DNA of 64,000 bases from Tetracentron sinense (Eukaryota > Streptophyta > Magnoliopsida > Trochodendrales > Trochodendraceae): assembly GCA_015143295.1 (NCBI GenBank), contig CM026568.1, positions 38,138,441-38,202,440 on the forward strand. Reading direction: 5' to 3'. Positions 271 to 58,100 of this stretch are shown piece by piece. A program made the translations under genes and the position numbers. Each line of letters opens with the position of its first letter. The stretch's first letter is position 1. The notes beneath the pieces were generated by a model that saw only the letters and a program-made list of their open reading frames with translations, searched no databases and was not told the DNA's origin.

Positions 271-3200
271 CTGCAAATTTAAGCTTTCATGAAACATTAG
301 AATAAGCTTGTTTAGCAAAAGTTAAGTACAACATTGAACATATCAAGGGTGGATTTTAACTCACCTCCAATATTAGGATTGATACGAGTGATTCTATTGT
401 TGTTCATAATCAGAGTACCCAGCCGACTTAGATAAGGAAAGTTTTCGAGCTTGACAATCTCATTGTCTGACAAATCAATGGTGTCAAATTGGTCCTGCCA
501 CGAGCCAAGGAATAAAGTATGCAGAATCATTACCATCAAATACAGAGTACTGGGAAGTTCCAATCTGTGTATAAACTATAAACTACATCTATCTACTTGA
601 AGTAATTTCATTACAGAACTAACCAACATGAGGATTGATACAAGAAATCCCCCAGGTGTTGAAAAAAGCAGTAATGCAGCTCAGCCATTATCCAATGTCA
701 TTATTATCGAAAGGTTGAAACTTCTATGTCACGAGTTTGATTACAGCTTCTCCACATTAATACAAAAACGTCAACAAAAAACAAGAATGACTTGAGCCAT
801 ATTTTTGCGGAATGAAGTTTCATTCTACTTTGATGTCATAAGTTTGATTACACTTGTACGCACAATAGATATGAAAATATATAATCATATATCAACAAAG
901 AACTAAAAAGATGTATTTTTTTTATGTACGTTATGAAGTTGATTGAAGACCTAAATGTTTTGCCAGTGGCAACAACTATGAGGGAGATCATGAGGAGACA
1001 GAAAGGGAAGTTCGAGAAAGGCGAGGCGAATTGATGAAGCCAAAGATGGAGGTCCATATGACGAAATGCATAAAGGCTCAATGAAGGGAGAATCAGAGTA
1101 TGGTATCAAATAATTAAAGACGTGGTTAGATTTGATACACGAGCATGCATTGGAAATATTAGTAGTGATTTCCAAAAAGATATTGGCTTTGGAATCCATC
1201 TAACCACATAGAAAATCAAATTTGGTTGTATCATGTATGGCAAATGTTAGTAGATATTCAATTTGCATGAAACAAACTATATAAGAGCACTTACCATTAT
1301 ATAAAGGGAGAGAACATTGTTATAAGAAATTCCTACTTTAATGCTAATCGTACGAGTTGCATGATTCTTCCATTGGAGTTGAGCGATTCCTCCAAGAGAG
1401 TTGAGCATTCCTCTCAATTGGATGAGTGTCTTCTCCAATATTTTATATTTTTTTTTTGGTGTCCAGTCTTTGGACCTTATCATCATCATCAAAGTAAATT
1501 TCAAATGTTCATCCTCTTCTCTTCACCTCCTCAACGGGCCACATCAATTGGTACTAGAGCAGGTTGCGGTTTGTGAAGGCTACAAAGTATCTTCATTTGC
1601 TTCAATTGAAAGTTGCATAGTACCCTTAGGAGCCTTCCGACTTAGTGCCCCCGACTACGGTGGAACCTGAACGATTAGGAAGTTGAAGATATGCAATGCC
1701 TCTTAAGCAAGGTTCTAAATGTCGATATCGCTCGACATGTCGAGCCAGGAAAAAAAGACATATCATTTATCAGTGATTTTTGGGAAAAAAATGGCATTAA
1801 AAAATGGAGCAAAACTTGAAATTTTGCAATAGAACTTTTGGAAATGTTAAAATAGATGTTAATAAACATTTGAAAATAAAAACACTTAAAAAAAAAACAA
1901 CAATGAACATAAGAGATACAATGGGAAGGGGGCAAAGATGTGTGTTGACAACCCCATGTATGATTGATTTAAATTATAACAAACATACATAAAATGTTTC
2001 ATCCATTTCTCAATCAATCATAAATTTATAGTTCATAAGATTCATAACAATATAAACATACACAATAATAATTCAACACACTCCAAGAACTACAATCAAA
2101 ACCAAAAAGAGTTACGCAAAGGCTCAACTGCCATCGGCACTGACAAATGAGGTTGTACACCTTTATACCCATATGGATGTGATTCATACAAAAAACATAT
2201 CCATATGGATATTGGCCCTATGATTGTGCATAGCTATGCTTCTGAGAGCACAATTGTCACTAACATTGTCAGATAAAGCTGAACCCCTCCCCAATACTCA
2301 TATCCATACAACTCATACCCAAAAATATATTCATATGATTTTTTTGAAATTTAAATTTGAAAGTATTTTAAATGGAAGGTACCCATAATATAATCAATTT
2401 TTTTTGTAAAGCTTGATTGTAAATTCTTTTTATGTTGAGCTATTAGTTGACCTTTTGGCTTTGTAGATGAAAATATTTTTGAAGACTAAAGTATGAGATG
2501 CTTTCACTGGACTTTTGGGTTATAATAATGTTTTGAATTTTTTATATGACAATTTATGAAATTTTAAGATTTGAGAAATACATTAACATTTGAAAGTTAA
2601 AATTCCCAAAAATGCGCTAAAAGCAGATTTTGTTCTTAAACTAAAAAGTTGACTTTGTCTTCTTCAAAATTTTGGATCTAGGGTAATATTTATTGAATTT
2701 AAATGGGGGGTATAGCCTTATATATATATAAATATCTTAAGTAAATGGTAAATATGCTTCACTCTCGTATCCTAAGGACAAAGCCTTAAAAAAAACAAAC
2801 AACCAGGCATTGGTCAATATTGCACGATATCGGCGATATATCCTCGATATGGTGTAAACAAAAATTTACCAGAGTGTAGATGTGTCGCCGACCACCGATT
2901 TTAATAAATATCAGCAATATATCGCCGATATTATCGATTTTTTGAACCTTACTCCTAAGTAGAATGAGTTCCTCTCCCAATGTTACTCGGGTTAGAAATT
3001 GTAGGTTTTGGTCAAAAAGAACACTGGACGATTTTTAGTGAGATCATTTCAATGTTTTAAAATGTGAAGGCGTGAAGCGAGGCGTTAGGACCTCAAGATG
3101 TGTGAGGCGTAAGCCTCACAAGAAAGCTTCATGCTCTTCCATTTTAACTAATAAATAAAATATAAGAAAAATTATAAAAAGATTCAAAAAGTAAATGAAT

Positions 3201-6200
3201 ATATATACATATTTAGAGAGAGATATACATTTATATGTGTGTGTGTTTGTGTGGGTGCACGCGTATATATAGGAAATATAAATCAGTTGAAACAATTAAC
3301 TTATATAAAAAAAAACCACTGAAGTCTCAGGTTGTAGCTAGAAACCTAATTCTAGTTAATGAATGAGACGTACATCATAGACATAAAGCGAGTTTCAAGG
3401 TTTGAGGCGTGTGCCTCATGAGGTTTAAGCCTCATGGTTGAGCCTCAAGGCGTTTCTCTGGCCCAAAGGCAAGCCTTGAGGCGTAAGCCTTATACGCTTT
3501 TTAAAACACTGGATCATTCTTATAGTCATTTGCCCGAGTATCATCGCACTATTTTTCCCAAAAGGCTGTTTGGTTCTCAGGAGTCTCATCCAAGGTATCT
3601 TTCTTCCATAGTCCACAACTCTGAATAAGATTCTTACAACATATCACTTAAAGAGCAGAGGGTGAAGTATGGCAAACCGATGTTATTTGTGCGTAATTGA
3701 GGAAGAGACAGTAAATTATTTGACCTTGCATTGTCCGGTTGTCTTTGGGATTTAGGCTTTCTTCCAGTCTCAATTAGGTGTGGAGTGGGCCTTCCATCTC
3801 TCCTTCCTAAGTTTCTTATAAGGTTGGCAATTGTTGTCACTAGTGGGAGCCAATGAAGCAATTTGGACTACGCTACCTAGAGCTATCTCTTGGAGTGTTT
3901 AGAAAGAAAGGAATAGTCGTGTCTTTGATAATTCCTCCCCTTCCAACCCTCGTATCTTAGCTCGTATTCGTCACATGCTTGTTGAATGGTCCTCCGTTTC
4001 ACAGTGGGGTGGGAAAGTGATCGGTGCTAATTGTTACACATTTATGCACCTCAAATTAAACTTGTTAGTTCTTTGGAGTTCTCTTTTAAATTGTTTTATG
4101 GTTCTCGGTTGCTTTTATCCCTTTTAGGTTCATGCGAGGAAAAGAAGATAAAACTGAAGATTTACAAACTTCAAAGACTCAAAAGAACCTCAACCATGTG
4201 AAGAACAAAAGAAATAAGAAAACTATAGAAAAAGTGGACTTGCAATCAATCGTAATGTACAATGTACACTATGGAGATCGATCGCAGTGTAATTGGCGAT
4301 CAATTGCCTGAAGACCAGTAACTGTATAAGAAATTCCCAATAGCTGTGATCCATCGCAGCTAACTGGCGATCGATCGTCCATCGGCCTTTTTGCCTCAAG
4401 ATGCGCGCACAAAAGTGAGGAGTTGGATCCAATTAGGGTTCCTAAAACCCTAATTAGCAAGGACTCTCTCTCTCTATAAATAGAAAAGCTATTACCCTTG
4501 AAAGAAGTTCTGAATTTTGGAAAATTGAAGAGAAAAAAGAACTATGGAGATCTGTGAAGGTGATGAGATGTGTTCTTTGTGTTTGTCGATGAAGACGGTG
4601 TTCTCCTCTCTCGCTATGAACTAATCTTTCGTTCTAGGGTTTAGATGAAACTCTAACCGAGTAATTGTATCTTTAATTGTATTTTACTTAGATTTTTCGA
4701 TTGTAAACATTGATTGCATAATAAGAGGGTTGTTTAACAACCCTTTTTAATGATTATATTTGATTTCAATAGATTTCTATCCTTGTCTTAAGTGTTATGA
4801 AATTGAAATTTAAAGCATTCCATTAATTTTCTGTGATAATTAATTGTGAATTTTATTCAATTGTATTAATTGTTCAAGAGATTAAATACTGGAATGTCTT
4901 ATGCTTAGGAAAAATGAGTGATTTCACAACCCTAGTTTAATGTGTATCACTCATGCTAACCACAGATAAGACATATTTAGGATTTGAACTCTTGCATCAT
5001 TCTAAATCTGTTGAGTAGGGACTTGTAGTCACTCTCACTTTAACTGCTTACACTTTGAGGAATTTGAGTAGATGCATTCGGGATCAGTTACGAGGATAGT
5101 GGTGGATTCAAATATCTTAGATCTTCTCTCCTTAAAATCACCAAAAACTCATTAGTTGATTCATTAATTAGAAATCATAAATTTAATTCATGTTTTAGTT
5201 TAATACAATTTAAATCAACTTTTATCACCCATTAATTTAGAAATAATATTGAGAAAAAGACGACGAAACCAGCGCAATCCTCTGTGGTTTGACACCCCTA
5301 CTAATCACTATTCTACGGAATTAGTGCTATTACGAGGTATATTAAATTGTAACGACCCGGAAGTGAGACATATTTTGTTGTGAGGAGATCTACTACTATT
5401 ATCATTCATTTGCTTTTTATTTCTTTATTCCCCTTCAGTTTATCCCCCTGTAAATTGTTGTTATTCTTCTTCACTATATGAATACACTTGATACTACCAA
5501 TCAAAAAAAAAGAACGATAGGTAATCTTAATCCTACAATTGTGCTATTTTGAACAACAATTCGTAGATTGGGACACTGTCAACTTTTTACGATTATTCAG
5601 ATGATAGTTCAAGGTTCACAACCAGATTTTTAAAGAGGAAAAATGTGTTAAGTTTTTTGTCTACCTATGATCATTCATTTTTATGGAATTCTTAAGACCG
5701 CATATGTTGTGTTGCTCTTTTCAAAAGCATCCGCCCAACGATTAGAAGATGTGTTCAAAAATCAAGCCAAGAAAACCATGTAAAAGAATTGCTATGGACC
5801 CATCCAATGCACAAGTGCAGGACAATGGATACTTGTTATTTGTTTGTGAGTAAGACAATAAAGACAAAAATGGGAATATTGAGCAAGTCAAAAACCAAAA
5901 ATCAAGCTCTGACTAAAGCCACAGCAATGAACTCAAAGGCAAGTTCTTTTCAAGATGTGGGATTGATGCAGCCCAAGATGTTGGGTCATAGGATGAAATG
6001 CAGAAAGGTCCAATGGAGGAGAAACATAGTATGGTATCTGTAAGCACCCAATTTTTACACCCTACTTAACCATGGTTAACCTCCGTTAATCATGGTTATT
6101 CTCGACCAAACCCTAATAGCCCTAGGTAGGCCATAATCCAAGCCCTAGTAGCCCTAGGTAGACCCTAATCCAAACTTTATTTAAACCTTAGAAAAAATTT

Positions 6201-9200
6201 AGAATTCAAATGGGTTCAAGACCCATTTCAAGTAAAATCCCTAAGCCCTAGGTAATACCCTAGTCTAACCCTAGGCTAACTCTACCTAAGCCCTAGGACT
6301 AACCCTAGGTAAACCCTAGACCTAACCCTAGGTCTAACCCTAGCCTAACCCTAGTCCAAACCCTAGGCAAAGCCCCATGGGCTAAGGGCCGGTCTCAAGC
6401 CCAAAACTCCAAAAAAAAAAAAAATTAAAACCTTGTTTGGGCCCAAGCATGGGCCCACTTAGCCCAACCCAAGTGGGGCCCACTTGTTGTTTCAAATTTA
6501 GAATTTGGGAGCCAACTCTAAGTAAGGTAAAACCCTTTTTGCTTTACCCTACATAGGTGAGGGTAGGCCCAAAAACATGAAATGCAAAAAAACAAAATAA
6601 TAATAATAATAAAAAATAATTTAAAAAAAAAAAAAAGGTTTTGATTGGGCACCAACCCCATGTGGCAAGGCCCACATGCGGGTTGGGCTCAAACAACCAA
6701 ACAGCAACCAAGTAAAAAACAAAATTAAAAACCATTTATCGTCCCTGACAATGGGACGAGCGTACAGACTAGCAGCTCCTGCCTCCCCTACCGCCTTGCC
6801 TCACCCTTCCTACCTTATCCCCCCACGTCTTCATCCTTATCCATTTTCCCCACCACTCCATCCTCTATAAAACCGACATCACAACCACGGTTTTGAGGAG
6901 CCTCAAATTCAAAAAAAATAAAATCTTGTCCCCATTCTCAATCCTCCAAGGTCTTTCCACACTAAGCCTCACCACCCTCTCCTCTCCAATACCACTTATC
7001 TCAATCCTCCAAGGCCACCGTCAGCCAGGGTTTGAAGAAAAAGGTTTTGAAATTTGTTTTAACAGTGAACTCGCCTCCTTCGGTACGTCGTCCACACTCT
7101 CTGAACTCTCCTGAGCTAGGCATTAGGCCATCTTTAGCCCTCCCAGAGCATCAGGCCTCACCAGCTTGCACCACAGTGGTGTTTGGATCACCACACCGCC
7201 TCACGCAGCCACAGCCGCACGAGAACACGAGGGTATATTTCCCTTTTTTCTTCCTTTTTTCTGCTGCTATTACCCTCATTGTAAGGGACCCCTGGTCCCA
7301 TTCCAGGGGTCCCATTTTGCCTTTTTTTTCTTTAATTTCGGATTCATAATCGTAGGTGGTTTCTCTTGAGGCGTGGCCACGGGCATAGCCCCCACCACCA
7401 TGAACCACCGTGGCAGCACTCCTTAGAGGTCAGGGGGGGTCCTCAATTCATGAGGAAACCCCCTACACTCTCAATGGTCAAGTCAAACAGCCCCAACGGA
7501 GAGTTTTTTTCAAAAAAAAATTTTCAGAAAAAATCATTTTCAGGCAGCCACCTTTAACCCTGGTTTAACCCAGGTTAGTCTCAACCCTGGTCGAAACTAG
7601 GGCCATGAGTAGACTCCCCACACATGGGGCAACCCTCCTGTAAATTTTCAGCCCCTGAATCCGCCATTAACCCAGGTAAAATCGACCCCAAAGTGGGGTC
7701 ACAGTGCAGAAAAACAGTTGCGGCGGAGCAACTTTGCACCTCTGTGGGGCCCACATCCAAACTCCTCTTGGGCCCCACGAAGGCTCAAACTGTTCCCCTC
7801 TTGGCCAACTTCGCAATTGTAATCTCGGATCCCCCTGGGGTTGAGTCAAACAGCGGCAAAATCGCTGCAAAGATCACCAAAAAACTGTTTGGGTCTTTTT
7901 GTTAAAAATCTATCATTTTATGTGGCCATTTTTTGGCCGACTTTAGACGGCCCACCCACAACATCATCTTGGGCCCCATTGCCCCACAAGGATCCAAATT
8001 ATTCATTACTCTTCAGGCTACCTCCTAGTATTCTCGGATTCCTGGGATTCCCTATTTAACCATGGTTAAACTTGCGTTAACTACGGTTAGAATTTGGATA
8101 AAATATGGGGTTTTTTCACATTTGCCGGACTTTGTAAGGGCCCAGACCAGGTAGGAGGCCAGTCTAGGCCCTGTCATGGACCCTGGACCCATTTTTGCCT
8201 CAGCCGGATCCTTAACCATGGGTAAACCCACTCATAGTTAACATTTAACCATGGTTAAGCAGCCCATGACCTCAGAAAATTCTGGAAAAATCATTTAAAA
8301 ACCACAAATATTCCTTGGATTCCAAAAATATTTTTTTTGATTTTTTTCATTGTGGTTAGGACCCTTAACCACGGTCAAAACCCCCATCCGGGTTGATTTT
8401 TAACCATGGTTAAACGACCCTCAACCAGAGAAAATCTGGAAAAATGCTCAAAATTTCCAAAATAATATGAGAAGTCCAAAAATGGTCTCACTTGGCCCTT
8501 TAACCCTGGTTAAGACCCTTAACCATAGTGACCTTCCCCCCCTTAACCGCGGTTAAGCATCCTTAACCATTGCGAAAAATCCCAAAAAAATCAGAAAAAT
8601 TCAAAAAGACCGAAGATACTGACTTTGGACTTTTTAATCATGGTTAGCACCCCTAACCATGGTTAATCACCTTTTTAACCACGGTTAACAACCCTAACCA
8701 AGGTTCAAAAAAACGGTTTCGGACACCGTAACGGACACGGCCGAAACCGTTACATAACGCCGTTACGTAACGGTTTCGGCCTTTACGGAGTTTTTTTTTT
8801 TGGCTTAAAAATTCAAAAAAATCACAATAAATAAAAATAAATAAATAAAATATGTAGGTGTAACGTAACGGTAACGGTGTTCACCGAAACCGTTACGTAA
8901 CGGGCGTTACGTAACAGTTTCTGCGTTTTTTAAAACCATGACCCTAACCCTTGGTTAAGACACCTTGGGCCTATCGGGCCTCACCCCTTGGCCTACCGGG
9001 CCTAACTCAGGCCTACAGGGCCAAACCAGCCTACCGGACTCCCTCATGGCCTACCGGGCCCAACACTAGTCTACCGAACTTACCCCAGGCCAAACTAGCC
9101 TACCAGGCCAAACTAGCCTACTGGGCTTCACCCTTGGCCTACCGGGCCCAACCCTAGTCTTCCGGACTTACCTTAGGCCTACCGGGCCCGAACCATGCAC

Positions 9201-21200: not shown

Positions 21201-23136
21201 GCATTCAGGTTTAGACCCAATCTGGTACTAGGGCTGCCCCAAAATAGAGAACCCTTCCACACCTCCTCCACTATTACCTTAAATCAGGGTGAGGTCAAGG
21301 AACATAGCTCATAGTAAGGTCCTCTTTTCAAACTCTTCGTGAAAGACCATGTCCTGCTTTTCCTTATCACATTGTTTGGATCCAGAAATTTCACTAAAGA
21401 TTTATTCCTTCAAACAACATCTTTGGATAAGATCCTTACCCTAAACCAGTGTAGTTAAAATGTTCGCCTAGCCTAGCCAAGATTGTGATCTAGGTAGGCA
21501 ATCATTAAACTTACATAATTTAAACAGGAAAAGTAAATTTTAGTCGCCTAGTCATCAGTTAAGCAACGCCTAGGCATCACCTCACCTAGGGAACCCTCTT
21601 TCGCCTGTCGCCTGGACGCTTTAACTACATTACTTTAAACCACCTATTAAACAAATGATGGAGGCCAGCTAATAGATGTTTTATGCATCTGTCAGAGGAG
21701 TACGTGGACCATGTTCCTTCATTTTCCTATACTCCTATTAGTTGGATATGGGGACCAATTCCTATTAGTTGTAGGCATCCAACGGTTTTTTCCCCACAGA
21801 TTTTTGGGCTTTAATCCCAGTCAGGTTATGCGATATATGGATGTTTCCACTAGTGTTGTATGAAATATGATATCAGGTGCTATTTGTTGGTGCATTTAGG
21901 AGGAGAGAAATAAGAGTGTGTTTGACAACCTTTTCCTTCCACAAGAGAGAAACTAATTGATCATCCCTAAGCTTTTTGCTTTCTCGGAGCTCAATTAGTA
22001 AAGGATTGTGATGCTCTCAATCTGACTAAATGTATTCCCCGGGTTAAGGGGTTGTTGCTCTTGGGATAGATCTTTGTTGTTATTTGTCTTTTCTTTATTT
22101 TGGATTCTCGGGTGACATGACCTATTCTGGAATCATTGGATATATGCTTAGGTAATGTTTGGAAATGCTTAATTTAAGGTCTTAATATACCTTAATGCTG
22201 GATTTTAGCAATTGAGCTTGTATGGGAACATATTATTTGCATGTCTTAACAAACAAACTAATACGCTTAATAGGTCTAACCTGTTAAGCTCACAGGTCCA
22301 TGCTTAATTAAGTAGTTATTTTAAGCTATTTCTAAAAAACAATCATGTGAATTAGAATTTTACTTAACAGTTCATAATTTATCCTTCAAATAATTTAAAT
22401 CCCATATATACCCTTTTAGAATTCAATTTGAATCCTAATATACATCTTCTTTCTTTACCAACACGGACTCTCCAAAAGACTAATGATCTCTCTCTCTCTC
22501 TAATGTCTAAATCATAGTTCAAAAACTCGATTCGACTCGGAAGTTAGCCTAATATTCGTCTCTTTCTTTACAAACACTGACTCTTCAAAACACTGATGAT
22601 CTCTCTCTCTAAAGTCTAAACCATAATAATATCTGAAACAAAAGAGTCCTCACTTTCCTTGCATTGGGGCAACAGCTTTGGGGGTGTTTCACGTGCATGT
22701 ACTAAACAAAGTCGGCTATTTCTAGGTGGTTTAAAGGTACTATGATGTAGATCAATAAATAGAAAGTAGCACAGTAGCACTAATTGATCAATTAGTGAAC
22801 CCATCTTGGAATAATTTTAAATTTATACCACTTTATCGATAAACAGAAAGTAGCACTAATTGACTAAATACTAACCAGCTAACGATGACCCGTACCAAAA
22901 AAATACATGACTTTTATAGAGCTTGCTTTGTTTGGAATTGACCCAAAATTGTAAGTAGCAATTCGCATGGGTACATACACCCAGTTGTGGGTGATAATTT
23001 TCTGAGCCAATATGCCAACCCACCTGAATTTTCACATGTTAGGTTTGGATTTCTCAAACCATAGAGAATAGGATTGAGTTTGGGTGCACTTCTCAAATTC
23101 AATGGGTCAAAAAAACTACTTAACTTATTAATATTA

Positions 23137-23198
<62 letters not shown>

Positions 23199-25560: not shown

Positions 25561-25734
25561 CCCACGGTCATCTTATCGAGGTGATTTTTGAAGGGTGGTG
25601 GTGGCACACTGGCACCCATGATAAGGGGGCAACATAGGCCAATAACAATTGATCAACCCATTGATAGGGCCCAAGTATCAGACACACACTAAATTCCTTA
25701 CTTTTATGTCATTTCGCCCCCTTTTTTTTTTCTT

Positions 25735-25880: not shown

Positions 25881-25884
25881 CAAC

Positions 25885-27740: not shown

Positions 27741-27796
27741 AGGCCAAGGGTGAAATCATACATCGTACACTTCAGGTTAAGTCACCTATAATCTAA

Positions 27797-30284: not shown

Positions 30285-30510
30285 GCATGAGATCGATCAC
30301 ACTCAATCAAAAAGGGGAAAAAAGGCTTTGTGTGGATTGCGATAGATCAGCTCCAGGTGCGATAGATCACACCGGGAGCTGCGATCGATCGCAAACAGTG
30401 GAAATATGGCAGAAGCTTTTGGGTCCCTGTGTGACAGATCGCCATCAGGTGCGATAGATCGCAGTGTTGTGCGATCGATCGCAGGTGGTGTGAGATCGAT
30501 CGCAGTCGCA
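30285..30510 (+). promoter_or_regulatory. GATCGATCGC word cluster upstream of an LTR TATA box
   Basis: GCGATCGATCGCA, GCGATAGATCGCAG and GAGATCGATCGCAG variants recur here, ending about 45 bp before the TATA box of LTR 'D'. The same word cluster precedes TATA boxes in LTR 'F' (4275-4380) and LTR 'B' (38165-38360, minus strand). Position suggests a U3 enhancer; that role is inferred. Confidence 0.5.
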
Positions 30511-31650: not shown

Positions 31651-33197
31651 GAGTCTATGCATATGTTAAGTTCAAGTTCATGAATAAGAGTTACACAAGT
31701 ACACGAGTCAAGATGATGTTATGACGTGTTATATGCTCCATACTCTGATTATGCCTATGTTAAGTGAATCTATTACGGTTAAACATACATAAACTAATTA
31801 AGCTATGATATTGATATTGCTCGTGCTACTTTATGTTGTTGTTGGTTTATTTATCCATTGAGTATTTCATACTCAGTCGACCTGTCATTGTCTTCAGGTT
31901 TAGAAGATAAGCCGTGGACTGAGGAGGTTTTCACGGAAGATGGAGAAGAAGGTGAGTTTCCTGAGGAATGAGCTAAGGATGTAGATAATTATCCTTATTA
32001 CTAGTTAGTTGATTCAGTTTTAAAGGAATTGTAATGAACTTTTAGATGATGTTGCTTATTAGAATACTTTGCAGTTGGTACCAAACTATTTTTGTTTATG
32101 TAGGTTATGTTATGTTGGGCAAATGACCGTTGTACAGGATGGTTTGGTTTTATATAATCGAAATTTTATCATCCTCATTTTTTGGAGACTCGTGTTAGTA
32201 TGCCTTGTATGTTATGGATTTAAGCAGATTAAGGAAATGTGACGATTCCAAAGTCCTATTTTAACCTTGTAGGATTTTGGGGTTGTTACAAAAAGATCAT
32301 CATGGAGAATAATACAGATAAGAGATGGTAACAAGATATCTGAAATAGGGTAAAAGCATGAATATCAATTTAAAGGATAAAGAGCAGTATAGTTTTGATA
32401 GAAGAGATCTAACGTGCATAGTATCTAAGTTCCAAGAGAAAGGGATTATAATCATGCATCGTTTCTAAGTCATTGTGTAAAAGTATACATCACTGTTTGA
32501 ACGGTCCCATGATCTTTCAAACAGTCACCCCATCGTTCGAACGGCTACCCAACCGTTCGAACGGTTAACAGTTATGAACTTGGTAAGGTTCCCAAGCGTG
32601 CAATAGTGTACATAACCGTTCGAACGTTGGATATGCCATTCGAACAGTATGCTCGCAGATTTTGGGGAAAAACTCCATTTTCACCCAAAAAGCTTGCAAA
32701 TCAACCACATTCCCTCCTAGATCGATTATAAGCATTTATTAAAAATAATAAAGACATGAATTTAAAGCCTAACAAGGGTGTTCACTTACCTCAACCCTAA
32801 AGTTTTAGGGTTTCTAGAAGATGGAAAACCCCCAAATGGGTTTGCTTAAAGCTCTTGATCTTCCCTTAGCAAGAGCTCTGAATCTCAGGCCTTAAAACTC
32901 TTTCCCCAAAGCTCTCTTTCTAATTTAGGTTTTCTAATGAAATGAGAGATTAGGTTATCTCTACCTATTTATACTAAGACCCTTTTATGCCATTTTAACT
33001 TAAATACTCTCATTAGTTATGTTTGGTTACACTCAAGGCTAAACTAAAATGTTTCATGCTCATTTTAGATTATTCCACCTAAGATTATAATTATTCTCAT
33101 GGCCAAACATACGTTGAAATATTACTAAAATACTCCTATTCTATGAAATTACACAAATGCCCTTAATATTTAAATTATAAATTTCAGATTCGCTACA

Positions 33198-36100: not shown

Positions 36101-38571
36101 GAAGACATACCTGCGAGGGTTGATGGGAGAATTGGCGATGATGATAGCTACTGATCCAGATGGAGAAGGAAACGGAAAATCTCTCACACTCACTCAATTA
36201 TACAGAATTTAGAATCAAAAAAGAATTGAAAAAGAAAGAAACAAAAAGAAAGGATTCTGGCCTCCTTGCACAGAAAAAAATCAAGAAATAATAAATATAT
36301 AAATAAATAATAATCAAATGAGATAGAGATGACCAAACAATGGTATAAGTTGCAGAGATTTAGAAATCCAGATCTAGGGATAAAGGAATGATGCGGAGTG
36401 ACCAGAGCATTACCTGAGAACGAAGAAAAATGAATTCGGGTGAAAAGGATCCGGTGTGTTGTTAGAGATTTGATCGGAAAAGGTGACAGAAGCTTGATTC
36501 TGTAACTCGCCGGAGAGGATGTTCGGAAGATAACTGATGAAAACTAGAGCATAAATAAACTCATAAATGAGAAGGAAATTAAAGAACACAGACCTGGATG
36601 TAGGAATCCTAGATTCGAATTTCTAGATCTCATGTTTAGATCTAGAAATTTCAAACCTAGAAAAACTGAGAGAAAATTTTTTTGATAGGAATCACTTGCC
36701 TTGATAGAACGATGAAGTAGAAAATGGCTGGGAAATAGCTATAAGCTAAGCTGAAAGTGGGGATAGAGGGAAAGGGAGCTGCAGACGCCGGATAGGAGCC
36801 GGTGATGATCGATGCAGGCGATCTGAGAGATGCTGGCTGAAAAAGGTCTTGATCTGGAGATGGACGGTGGTGGTTAGTCTGCAACTCGCCAGAAGGATCG
36901 CCGGAGATGGAGATGTTGGTCGGAGGGGACTTCTACTGCAAGTAAGATTTAAAAAAAACAAATGAACATAAATAGAAAGAAAGAGAATATAAATTCTAGG
37001 AATTCTAGATCTAGGAATTCTAAATCAAGAAGGAATTAGAGGAGAACACTAAGATAAAACCACAAAAAAAAACGAGAGATGGGGGGCGTTTACCTGATGA
37101 ACAGGAGAGCAATGAGCTGGCCGGAAATCGCAACTGAGGCGGAGCTGAAAATCGCCGGAGAAGGAAGAACGCCGGATTAGAGTCGACTTGGAGCTGTAGC
37201 CGAGGTGGTCAGTAAGGACGAGCCGCCGAAGGTGATGCTACCATGGTGAAGGGGACTGTCGGCCGAACCTCACAAATGAAGATGCTAGCGCCGGCGATGA
37301 GAACAAACGGATTTGGGCTACTGGAGTTGGTCTGCTGCTAGTGTAGGGGTGAGGTTTCACACCCAAGAGAGGGAAAAAATAATGAGAGAAATGAGTGAAG
37401 CTCTCTGCCGAAAATGAAGAGAAGGGAAAATGAGGTCATCTGACCTCATAAAGATTATTTATAGAGTGGTTTAAAGAAATTAGGGTATGAGGCTTATGTT
37501 ATGGGCTTGGGCTTTAAGCAATGAAAACTTTAAACAAGTTTTGGATCTCACTTGGGCCATAGGCTTTAAAATTCCATCCCTTAGAGGATTTAGCTTAAGT
37601 AAACTTGGGCTTGGGATCTTGAATTGGATTTTGTTTTGGAAACGTGGTGAGTCACGTGAATTGGGTTCTTGGCCAAGGGCTTACATGGGATTTCTCCTTC
37701 TCTCTCTCCATAATAAAATGAAAATAAAAATGAGTAAAATTAAAATAACTAAAAATAAATAAAAATAATAATAATAATAATAAAATAAAATAAAAGGTAA
37801 ATAAGATTTTAGGGGGTGTAAAAATGGGGTGTTCACAAACATGATTTGATTTGTTTCTTACTTTGAATCTAAACCTTTTATTCTTATTTATATCAATGAT
37901 TATCCTATTGATAGAAGAGAATCCATATTTACCTCTCTTGATCGCTTCCCTATGATCTTACACTTGTGAATGAGTCTCTGATCTTGATTTCCAAGCCCTT
38001 CTCTTCTTCTTCAATTGAAAACTCTAAGCAAACCCTAGGTTTTCCCTTATTTGTTTCCCCAAAACCCATAGGAAGCTTTTCTAACCATAAGTTCCCAAAA
38101 TAGGGTGTTTATATAGGTTTTAGAATTTTAACTCTCTTAAACTTCCAAATTCGCGACTATTCGCGTTTCCAGAAATGACCTATGATCGATCATCTGTTTC
38201 CTGCGATCGATTGCAGCTTCGACAATTTTCTAGGAACCTTTTGGGTTTCCCTACGATCGATCGTTTTTGTACCAGTGATCGATCGATACTAGTATCCTTC
38301 TTTCGCCAACTTTCTGTTATTCATGCAATCAATCATCTGACGCCTGCGATCGACCGCTACTGGTTTTTTTTTTATATAAAAGTCTTTTGCTACTTTTTTG
38401 ATAGCTTCGTTATCATGTACTTAAATCACAAAAATGGACTAAAATGAGCAAAATAATTAAGTGTTTCACATTAATTTTTATGAAAAATAATTGCATTATA
38501 AATTAAACACATTTTTATAGAGAATTAATTAAATAGCACAAATACCGAGAAAATAAATTCGGGTCTCTACA
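33198..38571 (-). mobile_element. Minus-strand LTR 'B', split by solo LTR 'C'
   Basis: In reverse complement the right edge at 38571 is TGTAGAGACCCGAATTT, matching the start of LTR 'D'. A minus-strand TATATAAACACCC lies at about 38110, with GATCGATCGC words upstream (38165-38360). After solo LTR 'C' (34767-37837), homology to the 3' half of LTR 'D' resumes, with an ACTGAGTATTGAAAACACTCAG-type motif at about 33708 and a GGATTTTGGGG segment at about 33280. The left terminus is not resolved. Confidence 0.5.
34767..37837 (-). mobile_element. Solo LTR 'C' (3.1 kb), target duplication AACAT
   Basis: AACAT flanks the element at 34762-34766 and 37838-37842. The plus-strand left edge is TGTAAGCACATAAATTTACC and the right edge GGGGTGTTCACA. 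Read in reverse complement, the right edge TGTGAACACCCCATTTTTAC matches the start of the 6039-9654 solo LTR. The two also share the AGGGGTTAGGCACCC, GAGTCGCCATCT and TCGAACCCTGGTTTGGGC blocks. No intact coding region; the open frames here are incidental. Confidence 0.82.
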
Positions 38572-41160: not shown

Positions 41161-41164
41161 CATT

Positions 41165-41610: not shown

Positions 41611-41931
41611 TGGTCGTAAACAATAGTAAGAATAAAGGTTGAAGACAATGTCATTGTCATTTAATTTAGGTGTAGATATAAATATTTTAATAATGGTTGG
41701 AGCTATTAAACCTCTCAAGCTACAGAGAAGGTGCTTAAATTTTTAAAATTTGATTATAAAATAAAAATCGGGTTTAAAAGTATAATCTTAGGGTTAAAAC
41801 TTCTTAACCAGAGTTAAAAGAGGACGCATGTTGAGTTGTGCAAAAATAGAGAAAAGAGGACGGCTCTCTGGCTCCTGAAATTTTGGGATATTTTTTTTCT
41901 CTATTGTGTTCATATGGGTGTAGATTGGGAG

Positions 41932-42093
41932 AGGGGCGGAACCAGGGAGGACGTGGCTTTAGGCCCTCCTAAACTTTTGAAATAAATTTTTTTCCTTATA
42001 AACCGATACAAACAAAGGTGATGCCTCCTCCCAAAAAAAATATTTTGGGAGCTACGCCCCGAACCACAACAAGAGAATCCTGGCTCCACCCCT
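41932..42093. mobile_element. MITE in the FRIGIDA upstream region
   Basis: The inverted ends AGGGGCGGAACCAGG (41932-41946) and CCTGGCTCCACCCCT (42079-42093) match at 13 of 15. The element is 162 bp with an AT-rich centre. I see no clear target duplication. It ends 97 bp before the FRI start codon, probably in the core promoter. Confidence 0.6.
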
Positions 42094-42099
42094 GGCTAG

Positions 42100-42190
42100 A
42101 GACGGCTATGAATCAGTTTATCGCCAATCCATATAAATGCATACCTAATCGAATTTCTAGGGTATTATTTCAGGGACACTTGAAACGTTT
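42100..42190 (+). promoter_or_regulatory. Putative FRI core promoter and 5' UTR
   Basis: CATATAAATGCA at about 42131-42142 is a TATA-like sequence roughly 55 bp upstream of the start codon. That would give a leader of about 25-30 nt. Position-based and tentative. Confidence 0.35.
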
Positions 42191-43136
42191 ATGAAACGAA
42201 AGAAGCGGATGATTAGAAAGACGAATCCCATCCACTCTCCATCCCCCGTGAAGGTGGAAGAAGAGGAGGCTGCACCACTACCACTACCACTACCACCATC
42301 AGCAATGGTGTCATCAGCAATGGTGTCTGTGAAAGTGGAACGACAGGAGCTAACAATAGCAGGATCATTGGCAATTGCGCCAGAGAAGCAAGAAGGAGAG
42401 GCAGCAGCATTCAAGAAGAAAAAAGAAGAAGGAGAAGCTCTTTTTCTGAAATCGGTGGATGAGATTCGAGGCCTCGCCAGCGCTCTCTACACCTTCAGGC
42501 GCTGTTGGGATCATTTTCAGAAGCATATCGAATTCATCCAAAATGCCATCGACACCAGGTCCAAACAGCTTGACACCAATTCCTCTATTGCACCAATTTC
42601 CGCTGAAGAGTTGCCCGCTAAGTCCGAGCTCGAACTTCTCTGCCGGAATATGAGCAGCCGCGGCCTCCGCAAATACATCGCATCACGTCTTTCAGACATC
42701 TCCAAACTCCGTGAAGAAGCTCCTGCAGCTCTAAAGCGTGCCCCTAACCCCTCCAAGCTCGTCCTGCAATGCATTGGCCGCTTTTATCTCCAGGGGATCA
42801 AAGCTTACTGCAACGCTTCTCCCATGATTTCGCTCCGACAGGTGTCCCTTCTCATCCTGGAATTCTTTCTTCTCATGGATTGCACTGAGATTGAGCCCTC
42901 GGTCAGGGACGAAGCCGAGGTGGCTGCAATTTCTTGGAGGAAGAGGCTTGTCGGTGAAGGCGGTGTCTCCAATGCCAACGAGATTGATGCCCGCGGGTTG
43001 CTTCTCTTTGTGGCTTCCTTTGGTATTCCCACTGTATTTGGAAACGAAGATCTTCACAACCTGATTCTGTTGAGTAATCCGAGCGAAATTTCTGATGCCC
43101 TTCGCAATTCACATTTCCTCCTCGAGAGGGTTCCAG
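42191..43136 (+). CDS. FRI: FRI exon 1
   Basis: Encodes residues 1-315 plus one base of codon 316. The donor GTATTT follows at 43137. Reading on into the intron adds about 23 residues and stops at 43210, so intron retention would give a truncated protein lacking the second half of the core. The ATG was chosen as the first in a long open frame close to a TATA-like element. Confidence 0.9.
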
Positions 43137-46100
43137 GTATTTTACTACTGCTGGAAACTGTTTTCCATGCTTTTAAGTTTTATCTTCACCTCAATGTATT
43201 TACCTTCTAGGTGTTTCCTACCAGTCACCTATCACCTATAGATTAAAAGCTCTAGTACTCTAGCTAGTTGCTGAAAAATGCCGGTCTATCAGTGAAAGAG
43301 GGGCAGTTAAAGGAGTCACATATAAAGTGTTTTAAATGTTTTAAACGAGAGTTGTATCAAGAGAAAAAATATTCACAAGTGGTTGACCACAAAGGGAATC
43401 AACAAGCATAAAATAATGACTATCCATACAGGGAAATTGAACTAGAAACCCTCAAAACTATTGCATTTACAAGTTCAATTGCTTATAAAGAGTACTCAAG
43501 CTAGTTCATTGGTTCATCACATGGGTGTTAAAGGCGTTGCCTCAAGCGGTTGCCTAGGCAACCAGGTGCTCTCTGCTATGCACAAGTGTTTGTCCACTTA
43601 AGCAGTCATTATTAAAAATCTGATCTATGTAATATTTTATTATTTAAGGTTATGCAATTTTTGTTTGAAGACGACAGTTTGGTGCACAAAAAAGATGTTA
43701 TTTTATATGCTTCCCGTATTGTTTATCATATAATATATTAGAGTTTGTATATCCAACAAAAAAAAAAGGTTTGCAGACATGGTTTAAAATGTCGATACGT
43801 ATCGACCGATACGGGCCAATACGTATCCTGTTTGGAGCTACCCAGATACACTGGTATGCTGGAAAAAAAAACTCACCCGTATCAGACCGATACAGGCCCG
43901 ATATGAAAGATTTTTCAATTAATTTTTTCTCTCATTCCATTTACACTAGGATCACACAACTTATTTATATAAAATATTATTCAAGTAAATGATTTTAAAT
44001 TAATATCACTTTCATTTACTTAAAATATTAATATGCAAATAAGGTTATCCCCCATTTGAATTCAATAAAAAATATCTTGATCCAAATTCCTGAAGAATAA
44101 ACAGTCAACTTCCAGTTCAAGAATAAAATCCTCTTTTTAGTATCTTTTAGGGACTAGGTCAAAATTTCGACTTTCAAATAATAACGTATTTCTCAAATAT
44201 CAAAATTTCATAAAATTTATTATATCAAAAATTACCAAAACCCAAAAGTTTGGCAAAAAAAATCTCATAGTTTAGTCTTAAAAAATTCTACAAGGTCAAA
44301 AAGTCAATTAACAGTGTCACAGTTCAGTATAAAAAAGCTTAATGACTTACATTAAACTTAAAATTTATGATTGTAATTCAATATATTCTTATTTAACTAA
44401 TTGAATGTAAGGTTTTAATATCTAAATTATTTTTCTTATACTTAGCTAAGTGACTATGGTTTGTATTTTAATACCTTCTTATAAGCATAACATGCACGCC
44501 TTTTTTAACTTATAAAATTTTCAACTTTCAAATGTATGGTTATAAACATAATTGGAGACTTTCATTTAGTTTGTTAATAGCTTATATTTGCATTAAAAGA
44601 AATTTTATGCAAAATATCCAAAATTTTCATTTTGTATCCAAACATTTCTTAGTGTATCTTGATTTTTCCGCTGTATCCATCCGATACGGTTCGATACGTC
44701 AATACGTATCCTGTTTTGGACTTACCGATACAACAACCGATACCGATATTTTAAACCATATTTGCAAATAGAATAAAAAATATGAAGAAGTCATACGGTG
44801 TAAAGTATGTTTTCCTCATGTTAACCTACCATCTTCCTCGTTTAATAGGTAGACTAATTGGTCTCTCTCTCTCCCCCCTCTATCTGTGGGTGGAACATAT
44901 GATCATCTTCAGTTTTTAGCATACTGTTAAAAGCGTCGCCTAGGCGACTAGGCACACAATTGGACATAGACGGCCTAATAACAAAAGAATGTCTTTAAGT
45001 GCCCCAAAATCCTTCTAGGACCTCCAAAGCTCTCAGAAACTCCTCTTTAAAGGGTCTTTTATAATTTAAATAAGTTTAGGTATCATAATTATATATTTTG
45101 TACTTATTGTGTACTTTTTATTACTTTTCTTGCCTATAACCCTGAAGAATAAGGAAGAAAGAAGAAATGAGAAGAAGAGGTACGACCTTTTCCTCTCCCT
45201 CTCTCCCCCGTTCGACAGTCACAATTAAGGCTATTTTTTATGTTTTTTATTTGGTCTTGCTCTCCCACCCCTCTTTTGTCCGATTGTCATTATAGATTGT
45301 TATTTTTTTTAATCTCTGAGTCTCTCTCCCCCATTTCGACAATCATGGTAGACTGTTTTTTTCCTTCAGTACTTTGAAATCCCCATTTATTTTTCCTAGA
45401 ACTGTCTTTAAGGGTGGTTCTATCAAAATGCATCTTGACAATAAAGATTTTGCAATTTATATGAATTGTAGGATCCATTTTTTCAGGAAAATGTAGCATA
45501 TACAAATCGAATAATTGGTAGAGATTTTTGTTGCAAGGAGTTCATTAGGCGATGCCTCAGGCACCTCAGGCGCCCATGGGCTATGTCGCCTCAAGTTTCC
45601 CAATCGCTTTGACAATCATGGTTCATCACATGTCCCTAATAATATGCAGTCTCTATATTTAAGCTCTTCAGAAATCTTCAGTGAGAAATTTTGTGCAATG
45701 GTGGGTGTTAAGAAAAAGTACTATGTGGTCAAGTGAAGCATGATGTCTTTATTGAAGAAGTATGGTGGTTTGAGTTAAGTAGACTTATCACTATGAACAA
45801 ACTGTTGCTTGGAAAATGGTTGTGGATGTTTGGTATAGAAGAGATTTGTGTTGAGTCTTTCTCACTAGTTCAAGAGAAGGATTGATAATTGAAATATTAG
45901 GGAAGTTGCTTTATCTATTGTAGTAGGGGGTGTGGAAGGGAAACCTGAAGCAATTGACATGGTAAAAGAATTCAATTTAAAGTTAGAATGAGTGATAAAA
46001 TTAAATTTTGTGAAGAAGATTGGTGATATAAGTAATCAGCGTTACTTCTTGGAGACCAAACACGATTGCCAAGTGTCCTAGGGTCCATTTAGAAACTCTT

Positions 46101-49100
46101 GTCAAATATAATAAGATCTAAAGAACAAGCTTGAGTCTTTTTCTAGAGTTCAATTATTTGATTAATCTTTGGAAAATCCCTTTAATTAAATAGTATTATG
46201 TTTGGTAAAACCTTTAATTGTCAATTTTTTAGAGCTTGTTAGTTATTAAAGGAGCAAGATATGTCATTTTAAAAATTTGCAAGTAAGATCCCTCCCCTCA
46301 TCCATTGTTTCATGGGTTACCACCATGGATTGAAATGTCGACGATATATATCGATGTCGACATTTATCGACACATCTGCATGGGGTGATATAAATTTTAC
46401 ACCATGTCGCACGATATCGATGATATATCAACGATGTTGTGCGATATTCCGAGTAATGTTGATTTTTAAGCTATAAAACAACTATAAAACAAAGCCAAAT
46501 CCTATTTACAACTTATTTATATAAACCATCATTTAAGTAAATTTACTTGAGATATTTATATGTAATTTAAGGTTATACCTTCTATTTGAATCAAATATTA
46601 TCCTAGATCCAAAATTCGTAAAGAAAAAAGTCAACTTTCTAGTTCGAGAACAAAATCTATTTTTAGTGCATTTTAGGGATTAGGTCAAAATTTGAACATT
46701 CAAATGCTTAGGTATTTCTTAAATCTTTAAATTTCATAAATTCTTCCATATCAAAACATTACTAAAATCCAAAAGTCCGGTGAAAAAAGTCTCATATTTT
46801 AGTCTTCAAAAATATTTTCATCTAGAATCAAAAAGTCAACTAACTGGTCAACATAAAATGACTCACATTCAAGCTTTTCAATTTTTTAAGTATATTATGG
46901 GTACACTCTATTTGAAATACTCCCAAATTTAAATTTCAAAAGAATTATACAAATATGTTTCTAGGTATTAGTCGTATGAATATGAGTATAAGGAGGTGTA
47001 CAACCTTATTTGATAGTGTCAGTGACAATTGTGCTGTAGTACCCATAATATTCACTGATAAGAGTGTTGCTACATCTTTGACTAGATGACTTCCAACGCG
47101 ATGAACATGACTCATGAGTATACATCAATGTACCACAATGTGATGAACCGGGCACAATATTTTACTTATGTGGAGAACTAATACTATTGTCAGCCTAGTC
47201 AAGACAAAGATGAGTCGGAGTCTTTGCGTGACTCCATGTGGCTCTGATTGTAGTTTGTGGAGTGGGCTGAATTATGCTATCATTGATGTATTATGTATGA
47301 ACCTCTTTATTGTTATGAATGAAACATTTTATGTTATTATATCAATAGTGATTAATTATACATTTTCGTCACTCGTCAGCTCACATCTTTACTCCCTTCT
47401 TCTCATTGCATCTCTTATGCACATTGTTGTTTTAAAAAAATGTTTACTCTCAAATGTGTATTAACATATCTTTTAACTTTTCTTGGGGTTTTACTGTAAA
47501 ATTCCATGATTTTTCCTATTGTTTTCCATTTTTCCATCGATGCGTGGAAAATACCCGATAAACGATATAACTTGTGATATATCCCCGATATATCTTTATC
47601 CCACTGGTGCGCATGTTGTGCGATATCGACATTTAGAACCTTAGCTACCACTATCCCGAAGTATTATCTCGCCCCCCTTCACTGTTATGGGTCACCCCTA
47701 CCCCCTTCTCCACTGTTCTGGGCCACCACCACCACCACCGCCATCCGCCCATCCCCCACCCCCTCTCTACCAGAATGAGTCCCAGTTCATTGTAGTGACA
47801 CCCCTTCCCCTTCTTTCTCCTCTCCGTCTCTCTATTTGGCCTATTGACACCCTAGGCCCCTACCCCTCTTTCTCTCTCCATTGACATCGTCAAGTTTTAT
47901 TGTTAATTTTTTAAGTAAGGGAGTACATATATTAAGAAAATCAATGGGATTAGGGTATGGGGCCTTGGGGGTTCTAGGGCGTAGCCCCCGAATTTTTTTT
48001 TTGAGTACTAGGTCCATCGTGGTCATAAAATTTGTTAATGTTGCATTCCAAAAAGAGGTCCAGCAACAAGAAAATTAAACACGGGCCCTCTTATTTGATA
48101 GTCATTATATGAATAAAATTAAGGAAAATGTTTAACTTACCATGCATTTCCACTATGTAATGAAATGCTGGTCTTCATTGGTTCCTCCCACCTTTTTAAT
48201 ACCCATTAACTATAGTTAAGATTCACTCACTCCTAGGGTTCATCTATTTAACCTTGGTTTTTAGAAAAAAAAAAAATAACTTTACGTTGGTTAAGTTTAA
48301 CTATGGTTAAAGGGGATGAAATGGGAAGACATTTGATTATGTAGTCAAATGCGGGGTGGGTTAATCACTACTCTAAAATTACTAAATTTTTATATACTTT
48401 TTAAAAAAAGATTATGGAGATTGTTTTTCCACATGCGCGATCCGTGTTTAGTGGAACGTGCGTGTCTCCCTTGCTTGACATATGTCCCTTTTAACACCCG
48501 TTAACTGTGGTTAAGATTTACTCACCCATAGGGTTTATACATCTACCCTTTGTTTCTAATAATAAAATTAACTACTAAGATAATAAATCTTAACTAGGGC
48601 TAAAAGGGACACAAAAAGAATCAATCTCTTTATGTTATACATATAAAAAAAATTACAATATTTTTTGCGGGCCACTGTTTACAAAATTTACGTATGATGT
48701 ATATATTTTTAAAAATTTATACATATAATATATTAAACTTTGAAATTTTTTTTTTTTTGGGGGTGGGGGGGCATGGCCCTCCCTCACCCCCTGGCTCCTC
48801 CCTTGTGTGAACCCATAAGAGTAAAATGTGGGTAATGAAAATTTACATGTGTTTTTCATTTGCGAACTCTCACATATGCTTTGCATATATGAACTCTTAG
48901 GATGCTAGTTTGAGGTGGTTGCTGAGTAGGTAAGTTGGATCCCTAAGATAAGTAGGGGACTGAGTTATTAGGAAATAGATGATTATCCTAGACTGTTGGA
49001 CCATCTGAACTCTACGAACCCTAATATCCTGGTTAGAGATTAGAATTTGGACTGGGGAGAGTTAATGGGCATTCTCATACAGGGTTCAGGTCCTTCAGGA

Positions 49101-55100: not shown

Positions 55101-58100
55101 TTGAAAAAGGCCAATTTTAATAGAATGATTATTAATATAATTAGATAATAAGGACTTATTTCCCAAAAAAAGATAGGGGTATTTTAGTAATATTTAATCA
55201 AGATATTTTCGTAATATTTACAAAAGTCAAGGTATTTTTGTAAATGTTTTGGGGATTCTTTGGGAATTCTCTCATAGGTGATCTTGTAGGCCCTACATGC
55301 ATAGTTACCAATTACGGGTAATGATCCATTCAGGAAGTATGGGTGTTATACGGCAAAAACATGATAAAAGAACGAAAAATTTAAAAGTAATTAATAATTA
55401 TAAATAAATAAAAAATCATGATATAACTAATAACAATCATTTAATATGAAATATGCGTTTAATATGGTAAAAGGACGACAAAAATACACGTATTGCACGC
55501 GTTTAATACGTAATTCATGTATTAAATGGGTATTATATGGCGATATGCGTATAATACGTAACAAGACAAAAGTACGCAGGCGAACTCCCCTAAAAATATT
55601 ATACGGGTGTTTGGTAACTATGTTTCTAAGTAGGTTTGTCAATTTAGCTCTCATGTGAGGGTATCCAGGCTAGCCCTCAAAAGCCCGCAAAATCGAGAGC
55701 TTTTTTTCATTCATAAAGCCCACAAGCCCATGTGGGCCCGAAAAAACTAGGCCAACCCATTGACATGAGGGCCGGGCTTGGGCAACACCCCCTACAGCCT
55801 GACCCTCATTTTATATATATATATATAGAAGGACAGTGGACTGAAGATTAATGCTACAGAGGTCCGACTCACCACCACCACACACACCCTACACAGGGCT
55901 CTGATACCATTCACACCCAGGATGAGACAACCAATGAATCAAGAAGACAGGTTACCGCCTAGTGAATCTAAACTAAATCAATATAAAAGATACACTAACA
56001 TAGCAGCATGAGAGAAAGAGCTACATCCTAGAGTACATTTAAACTATCAAGTGTTTAGTTACTCATGATAAAACAAAACATCAACAATATATTTATTGAA
56101 AACTGAAATACATAAACAGTACGATTAAACGTGAACTACCAGTTCCTTAAACTGAGATGGTAGACGGACCGTTCTAAATATCCAGTATGGATAACCGAGG
56201 CTTACACGAGTCTACTCAGTTCAACATTTCCTTTTTTTCATAGTACATGTTAGAAAACTATTCTATATGATCACCATTGCTTGTAGGGAAACACTCCCAG
56301 CATAAAATACAACAAAAGCACACAAATAGAACTGGAAATAGCACATAGATAAATTGATAAATTATACATTAAGAGCTTTGAGAGATGATACAACATGCTT
56401 TGTTACCACATTGCTTCAAGTATGCATAACAAAAGTTCAACTGTTAAGAAGAGATTCCTCTAAACTCACATGGTTAGGTTTGTAGATAAACTGTTAAGTG
56501 TTGAGTGCTTACACCTACTGCAAGTAAAACAATGAATTACATGTCCAACATCATTTTCCGGATAAAAACGCCCTTTACTCTGCAGCCAAACATGCTCAAA
56601 TGAACTCCAAGAGACCCCAACAATATATGCGTGATTATACATTTGAAGTTCATATACATGAATCTGTGTATTCTCCATCTCAAACATCTTCATAGATATC
56701 ATCTCTATTAATATAAAGAGGATTCCTCTGTTCAAAACGTTGATTAATATTTGTTGTAATTCCAAAAATGCCATTTGACTTCTATCTAACTATTACTCTA
56801 TCAATGAGAATGCTACCTTTAAAAACGTAGACTAATTTTTTGAATTCCCAAATTGCCCTTATCATAATATGTATATAAGACAAAAATTTCATTAAATGTT
56901 TACTTAATTCCCGTACTACCCCTTACTCATTTGTACTTGAACTACAGTTATATATTCTTTAACTATGGTTAAGATTCACCCACCCCTAGGGTTCACCCAC
57001 TTATCTTTAGTTTTTAGGAAAAAAAAATAACCTTAAGAGTTAGTGAATTTTAACCAGGGTTTAAAAAAAATTAATATTTTTTTCTAAAATCAAGGATAAG
57101 TGGATGAATCCTAGGGATGGGTGAACTCTAGAGGTAGGTGAATCTTAACCACAGTTAAGGGGTGTCAAAAGAGACACATGAAACCCCTAGGGTTCACCTA
57201 CTTATTCTTGGTTTTTAGAAAACATATTAATTTTTTTAAACCCTGGTTAAAATTTACTAAACTCCTAGGATTAATTTTTTTTTTTCCATATTTTTTTTCT
57301 AAAAACTAAGGATAGGTGGGTGAACCCTAGGGGTGGGTGAATCTTAACCATACTTAAGGGGTGTCAAAAGAGACACATGCCAACCTCAAGGGCGTAACCG
57401 GACTCCAATTATGGTTAAGATTCACCCACCCCTAAAGTTCACCCACTAATCCTTGGTTTTTAGAAAAAAATCTTAATTTTTTTAAAACCCTGATTAAAAT
57501 TCAATAATTCTTAGGGTTAATTTTTTTCTCTAAAAACCAAATGGATGAACTTTAGGGGTGGATGAATCTTAACCACAGGTAAGGAGTGCTAAAGGGACAC
57601 ATGGCGACTTTAGTGGTGTAACCAGACTCCTCGCCCTCTTGGCAAAACGCTCCGAAAGAAGAACGTCTCGCCAAGGTCCCACCCCCCCTTTTTTTGCTAT
57701 ACCCAAATGCCCCTAAAGCCTTTTGAGTCTCAAAATATCCCTATGTCATATTTCTATAACCAACGTGTCCCTCATAATTTTTTCATATGGGATATCCAAA
57801 ATGTCCCTCAAGTTTCCATACCCAAAATATTTCTTAATTTTTTTTTTCAAATGACCTCACTAGGGTCCCTCTTCCCAGTCTCTCTCCCGTTCCCATCTCT
57901 CTCACGTGCATCACATGTGCTGCCCACTAGTCCCTTATAATGGAAGTTCCTTTCTTAACATATCCAAACTTCTTCAGAGACTAGAAGGCTATACTAACAT
58001 GTACTAGAAAATGACTGCAGCAGGTGGTGGTTTAGAGGAAAAAAATTTGATAAATATCATACGATTTTGTTTCTTTATCTTCTTTTCAAGCCAAGTTCCA

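Follow-up and report, generated by a model that had tools for sequence, protein, structure and literature searches.

Eight probable hAT-type elements in the window

The window analysed here, a 64,000-nucleotide stretch of the Tetracentron sinense genome (G000:C18:38138441-38202440, in a 1.16-Gb genome), contains eight transposable elements with short words repeated near their ends. They are very probably non-autonomous members of several hAT families, and we predict that the words are half-sites of each family's transposase. We grouped the elements into families A to G. Family D is found twice, in opposite orientations: at 46324..47643 on the plus strand (words CGATATATCG and CGATATATATCG, target-site duplication (TSD) GTTACCAC/GCTACCAC), beginning at an inner CATGG tip, and at 1708..2951 on the minus strand (word CGATAT, TSD CTCTTAAG/CTCCTAAG), the two being related at 67% over 1153 nt. 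All other elements are on the plus strand. Four of them are miniature inverted-repeat transposable elements (MITEs) of hAT type: family C at 3050..3511 (word GAGGCG, with GAGGC/GCCTC inverted at a gap of 4; TSD GATCATTT/GATCATTC), family B at 8699..8940 (word CGTTA-CG-TAACG; TSD ACCCTAAC on both sides), family E at 21447..21632 (word GCCTAGGC; TSD CCCTAAAC/CTTTAAAC, 6/8 matching) and family F at 55300..55622 (GGGTATAATACGG-type word and tips CATAGTTACCAA; this copy lacks a recognisable TSD). The hAT-type element G (43520..45620) has a perfect TSD, GTTCATCA, and is split by the inserted non-autonomous element of family A (43778..44760; word CGATACGTATCG, TSD TTTGCAGA/TTTGCAAA); its left end is GCCTAGGC-like and its right end is nearer to the GAGGC word of C.

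The tips of hAT elements are short, start with C/T-A and end with G. The left tips in the window are CAAGG, CAATG, CAGTG, CATGG and CATAG, with a hAT-like start throughout, and the similarity of the extreme ends seen in the first-pass annotation of this DNA is confirmed across families. Genome searches were performed with one query each for A, B, C, D, E and F, while G and 1708-2951 were not used as queries. Each of the six is multi-copy: the best 40 of 455 to 5794 first-look candidates were scored, the window copy included, and the true numbers are larger. With at least 40 scored matches each, the six places searched out of eight are real repeats. The words themselves are also abundant genome-wide in comparison with reversed-string controls, at 1654 versus 36 for CGATACGTATCG, 996 versus 1 for CCGTTACGTAACGG and 2170 versus 379 for CGATATATCG.

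Family D shows some peculiarities at its left end. The element at 46324 begins at the inner tip, and another CATGG tip lies further out in fuller copies: compared with L144, L145 and L146, the outer tip is CATGG(T/G)TTGAAATATCC-like and the inner one is CATGGATTGAAATG or CATGGAATGAAATG. By eye, L107 and L113 also start at the inner tip, as if this internal tip were an alternative end. At L147 (G000:C24:9583880-9584240) two D elements abut, right end to left tip, apparently by insertion at the edge.

Words shared by the two ends

It had been suggested that the word differs from element to element while matching within an element, and that the agreement of both ends should be checked against chance. 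For this comparison the outer 14 bases were trimmed (in E by motif) and the 5-mers of each end were scored against dinucleotide shuffles in nine families, comprising A to G and two complete hAT elements from elsewhere in the genome, T1 and T2, which are described below (30 copies each of A and B, 20 of C, 14 of 20 of E, four of D, 11 of 12 of F, and one each of T1, T2 and G). Left and right ends are much more alike within a family than between families (mean cosine 0.57 versus 0.11; p 5e-6, the lowest value obtainable with 200,000 permutations, and p 5e-5 in a variant with only the window copy of F), and the left-right matrix peaks on the diagonal in 8/9 rows and 8/9 columns. The two ends carry the same word in eight of the nine families, G being the exception.

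Subterminal repeats, as expected of hAT elements, are present near both ends and are weak in G. In family A, CGATA occurs 4.80 and 3.73 times per end versus 0.01 in the body. In one of the two relative orientations the inverted half-sites are found at a fixed gap: 19/19 CGATA pairs in A (within the searched range) and 101/101 CGTTA pairs in B are separated by 2, and 31/37 GAGGC pairs in C by 4, while pairs in the opposite orientation have variable gaps. The description of the words as self-complementary holds in part. Exact palindromes of at least 8 bases with CG, GGC or GCC are denser in the elements than outside (3.06 versus 0.84 per kb), but their excess over shuffles is clear only in 46324-47643, 1708-2951 and 43778-44760, where 0/300, 5/300 and 11/300 shuffles reach the observed value; it is weak in B, E and G (27-60/300), and such palindromes are absent from 3050-3511 and 55300-55622. 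TAATACG, listed among the self-complementary words, is not a palindrome.

Families A and D are relatives, as indicated by their shared body sequence (77% over 318 nt, E 5e-59), and their half-sites differ by one base at both ends. The A half-site CGATAC is present 3.77 times on the left and 3.33 times on the right per copy, with CGATAT at 0.90 and 0.33 (30 copies), while in D the numbers are 5.00 and 2.60 for CGATAT and 0.25 and 0.20 for CGATAC (four left and ten right ends; word values for the D body rest on two short stretches). Could the D word have arisen from that of A simply by deamination of CG (CGATACGTATCG to CGATATATATCG), with the recognition site unchanged? The two words do differ by a C-to-T transition, which is the most frequent type of decay in this material (in families A, B and C transitions are 4.5 to 14 times more frequent at C/G than at A/T sites), and the window D element does contain CGATATATATCG. 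Random decay should, however, strike both CGs, whereas D has lost the inner CG and kept the outer one at both ends (CGATA at 5.25 and 3.30 per end), and we therefore consider this explanation unlikely.

Still less probable, in our opinion, is that the matching ends are long terminal inverted repeats (TIRs) kept by descent or gene conversion, with functionless words. Collinearity between the two ends, measured against shuffles on one copy each, exceeds expectation in C, B, E and T1 (z 2.7, 3.2, 4.0 and 6.3), so that terminal-repeat homology, or shared descent of the ends, contributes there. It is low in A, D, F, G and T2 (z 0.2-1.9), and yet A, D, F and T2 (z 1.9, 1.1, 0.9 and 1.9) share a word between their ends; moreover, there are several words per end and almost none in the body of A. 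A hairpin-forming or methylation-avoiding design, also raised in the first-pass annotation, is hardly credible: single-stranded DNA of the window copy of B does fold, at -54.9 kcal/mol (z -6.5), but inverted arrays fold in any case, which accounts for this capacity, and avoidance of methylation finds no support in view of the CG-rich ends in A and B (observed/expected CG 1.89 and 2.78; C is neutral at 0.95) and the decay of C/G sites through transitions in A, B and C.

Palindromic words are also found elsewhere in the window. The stretch 61274-61560 has a CACTA-like start, CACTACAAGAAA, which we take to be typical of CACTA elements, followed by several copies of the palindromic word GACACGGAAA..TTTCCGTGTC, and so the subterminal-word style recurs in a second superfamily. 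Three exact copies of the palindrome CGTTCGAACG are clustered within 100 bp at 32490-32655, clusters of GATCGATC palindromes are found at 30291-30494 and 38182-38278, with TGCGATCGATCGCA twice among them, and 56956-57585 contains dense nested inverted repeats on TTAACTATGGTTAAGATTCACCCACCCCTAGGG with arms of up to 98 nt.

Target-site duplications and transposase genes

Genome copies were extracted with their flanks, and flank identity was compared for duplication lengths of 5-12 bp. In the four families profiled, A, B, C and F, identity peaks sharply at 8 bp (A 0.79 in 30 copies, B 0.93 in 30, C 0.81 in 20, F 0.95 in 10) over a background of 0.20-0.36 at 5-7 and 9-12 bp; at 9 bp, the length called for by a Mutator assignment, it is 0.20-0.31. 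At least 7/8 TSD bases match in 20/30 copies of A, 27/30 of B, 14/20 of C and 9/10 of F, and the 8-bp TSD is perfect in 25/30 copies of B. A second set of F gave 7 or 8 of 8 in 10/11 sister copies (12 were fetched, one without recognisable tips). In family E both copies with two flanks and parsable tips, out of 20 fetched, match at 8/8, and a third copy lies at L039:648-994. T1, T2 and the transposase-bearing A element described below all have perfect 8-bp TSDs.

The first-pass annotation had described 9-bp duplications, and this can be understood from the element edge. The base before ATGG is C in 19/20 A, 26/27 B, 14/14 C and 9/9 F copies with good TSDs. In the right-hand flank, by contrast, the base at position nine varies (C in 6/20, 9/27, 1/14 and 1/9, respectively). 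The ninth base is therefore explained by the C belonging to the element rather than to the duplication. With the edges as annotated earlier, the window 9-mers match at 9, 9, 7, 7, 7, 7, 3 and 1 of 9; when the left edge is moved one base outward for six elements and kept for 46324 and 55300, the 8-mers of 1708, C, B, E, G, A, D and F match at 7, 7, 8, 6, 8, 7, 7 and 3 of 8, respectively. Taken by themselves, the copies in the window thus barely separate 8 from 9 bp, and it is the genome copies that decide for 8 bp. A de novo scan for hAT-like pairs in the window and L001-L060 gave 12, 27, 8, 1, 0 and 0 at lengths 6-11, with no excess at 8, and a scan of the same type in the window only gave 28, 4, 7, 5, 1, 4, 0 and 0 at lengths 5-12; such scans are informative for single finds only, for example L039:648-994.

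The search for autonomous relatives with matching words, which had been proposed as a check, led to transposase-bearing relatives of A, covered at both ends, and of C, covered at one end. A DUF659-type hAT transposase profile matched at all 150 places scored, the best of 1783 candidates, and seven of these loci were followed; ends were reached for A (on C1), C (on C13) and a further family with the word CGAGTC, termed H (on C16 and C7), while those of L174 and L175 were not reached. The DUF659 gene at G000:C1:19648954 lies 3.7 kb from a CGATACGTATCG word, within an element of 6718 bp (G000:C1:19646374-19653091) that is flanked on both sides by the perfect 8-bp TSD GTCTCTAC. The two ends of this element, over about 220 nt each, contain 13 and 5 copies of CGATAC, which is absent from 1500 nt of the body, and in two stretches of its 3' part the element resembles window element A, at 79% (204 nt) and 85% (126 nt). 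A sister on C19, covered as coding sequence only, is identical to it in 1187/1210 aligned columns and has a 611-aa frame with a hAT dimerisation domain.

The relative of family C (G000:C13:39875994) has a 582-aa frame with DUF659 and a BED finger, followed by GAGGCG words and, at the right end, the family C tip CAATGTTTTAAAACG (CAATGTTTTAAAAC tip); this end is related to window element C at 68% over 156 nt. Downstream of the DUF659 genes of H lie CGAGTC words and the tip CAGTGTT; of these genes, the one on C16 encodes a BED finger. Of the domains expected of a hAT transposase, the relatives show DUF659 and, in the C19 sister, the dimerisation domain for A, and BED and DUF659 for C, whose dimerisation exon lay outside the scan. 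The C-terminal stretches of the A, C and two H genes are 43-67% identical (51 residues; 47-52 positions). A D-like stretch 3' of a transposase fragment at L128 was also considered as a possible pairing and was rejected, since by eye it looks like an insertion into LINE-like sequence.

The classification of the window elements as Mutator-like must therefore be rejected, on duplication length and on transposase type, and we regard it as extremely improbable. In its favour, two of the eight elements have perfect 9-mers at the edges used then and four more match at 7/9, and duplications of 8-9 bp together with tandem repeats near the ends are found in some Mutator-like elements (MULEs), as described for mosquito Muta1 (PMC5225508). 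Muta1 resembles the window elements in its repeat arrays at both ends and its duplications of 8 or 9 bp, and differs in having 145-bp TIRs and a Mutator transposase, in contrast to the short tips and hAT transposase domains found here (PMC5225508). Against a Mutator origin stand the sharp 8-bp peak in four families with no signal at 9 and a variable ninth base, the C...G tips, and the transposases found with the words and tips of A and C, which carry DUF659, hAT dimerisation (A sister) and BED (C) domains, although no search for MULE domains was made. The case calls for some caution, as reading a duplication one base too long can lead to misclassification of such elements as Mutator.

A second clade of hAT genes was found with the hAT dimerisation domain (PF05699), which matched at all 150 places scored, the best of 1709 candidates. 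Two complete elements, T1 (G000:C11:34316772-34320890; 670-aa frame) and T2 (on C7; 717-aa frame), carry BED and hAT RNase-H domains in transposases that are 44% identical over 494 residues. Their left tips are identical, TAGGGCTGTCAA, and a one-base difference is seen at the right tip of T2, but each element has its own word at both ends, CGGAT in T1 and AGGGCC in T2. Downstream of 20 hAT genes from the 150 PF05699 places we found a GGGCC array in ten, a CGGAT array in two and neither in eight, and in this downstream DNA none of the 20 had an A-G word as its own end. Among ten further genes picked by similarity to T1, a GGGCC-like array is present in two (L161 and L162) and none was recognised in the other eight. 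L161 and L162 belong to a hAT gene type 48-49% identical to T1, with a GGGCC/AAGCCC array and the tip TTGACACC(C/T)CTA.

Proposed recognition of the words by hAT transposases

What is the role of the words then? The first-pass annotation had considered a diversifying transposase-recognition code with matching ends, and this idea is supported by the same-word ends in eight of nine families, by the A-to-D switch and by transposase genes with the matching word. The word is most likely the site, often as an inverted pair, for the BED finger of the transposase, as in Hermes; that it is this protein which reads the word is suggested by analogy with other hAT elements. In the mechanism that we propose, the N-terminal BED zinc finger would bind the half-site, and two fingers on an inverted pair would give the word its palindromic look. 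Having several sites at each end could serve to recruit the transposase and to bring the ends into synapsis. Near-constant tips together with changing words would then mean constant cleavage and changing recognition: a conserved cleavage step would keep the tips nearly constant, while the words would drift as the BED finger changes in each transposase lineage and, as one protein would read both ends, both ends would change together.

Short subterminal motifs, different from one element to the next, are known to be read by hAT transposases, with examples coming from different species; the word of maize Ac is AAACGG, and the tip of Arabidopsis Tag1, which we take to be CAATGTTTT, would equal the family C tip. 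Published systems differ in how closely they resemble the elements described here. Housefly Hermes makes an 8-bp duplication, and its subterminal repeats are bound by BED fingers, of which two occupy a quasi-palindromic pair (PMC10368747), which is the arrangement that we predict here; its motif is, however, AAGT and its ends are used asymmetrically, in contrast to the dense family-specific arrays at both ends in our case. Subterminal AAGT motifs also occur at both ends of medaka Tol2, in which the tip is followed by a perfect palindrome, AAGTACTT (PMC10368747), but the word is another one and the motifs are reportedly unlike between the ends (PMC3143072). Mosquito Herves has one transposase-bound motif, CGATTCAT, at both ends, again a different word, and a palindromic arrangement is not described in the portion of that source at hand (PMC3143072). 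In Tag1 short subterminal motifs are recognised by the transposase, as proposed here, but they are TGACCC on the right and AAACCC on the left, while in our families the same word, often in inverted pairs, is found at both ends (PMC3143072). In maize Ac/Ds the N-terminal region of the transposase reads subterminal sites at both ends (PMC10368747); this hAT element also has heterogeneous non-autonomous derivatives (PMC3260210), and differs in motifs that are reportedly unlike between the ends (PMC3143072).

Several observations weigh against hAT families whose transposases each read one word at both ends. The binding motifs of Ac and Tol2 reportedly differ between ends (PMC3143072), and so same-word ends are no general hAT rule. 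The ends of element G match each other poorly (cosine 0.22), the left one being nearest to E (0.40) and the right one to C (0.39), and the end-to-end collinearity in C, B, E and T1 has to be counted here as well. In family D the gaps between inverted half-sites are irregular, and the TSD matches at 7 or 8 of 8 in just 2/4 copies assembled from both ends. The DUF659 frame of the transposase-bearing A element on C1 is just 300 aa long, and no BED finger was matched in the fetched A transposase DNA (L178), the BED region lying outside that DNA. For the C13 and H genes the fetched DNA covers the right ends only, with left ends and TSDs outside it, and among the fetched genes there was no transposase partner for B, D, E, F or G.

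Family-specific subterminal motifs are already known for hAT elements, and the window elements are new members of this group. A further-reaching possibility, which we consider evenly balanced, is that DUF659-type hAT families with near-constant tips (CA..TGTT or CAT.GTT, then AAAA) have split into mutually exclusive words (CGATAC, GAGGCG and CGAGTC, and perhaps CGATAT, CGTTACG, GCCTAG and the F word), each BED finger reading its own word only. They would then be orthogonal mobilisation systems within one nucleus, with A-to-D representing one re-specification step. No report of word switching between plant hAT families was found in the open-access literature, searched by title and start of abstract. 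The new interest lies in several families with related transposases being present in one genome, with a one-base switch at both ends, so that the specificity of the BED finger and the joint change of both ends become directly testable here.

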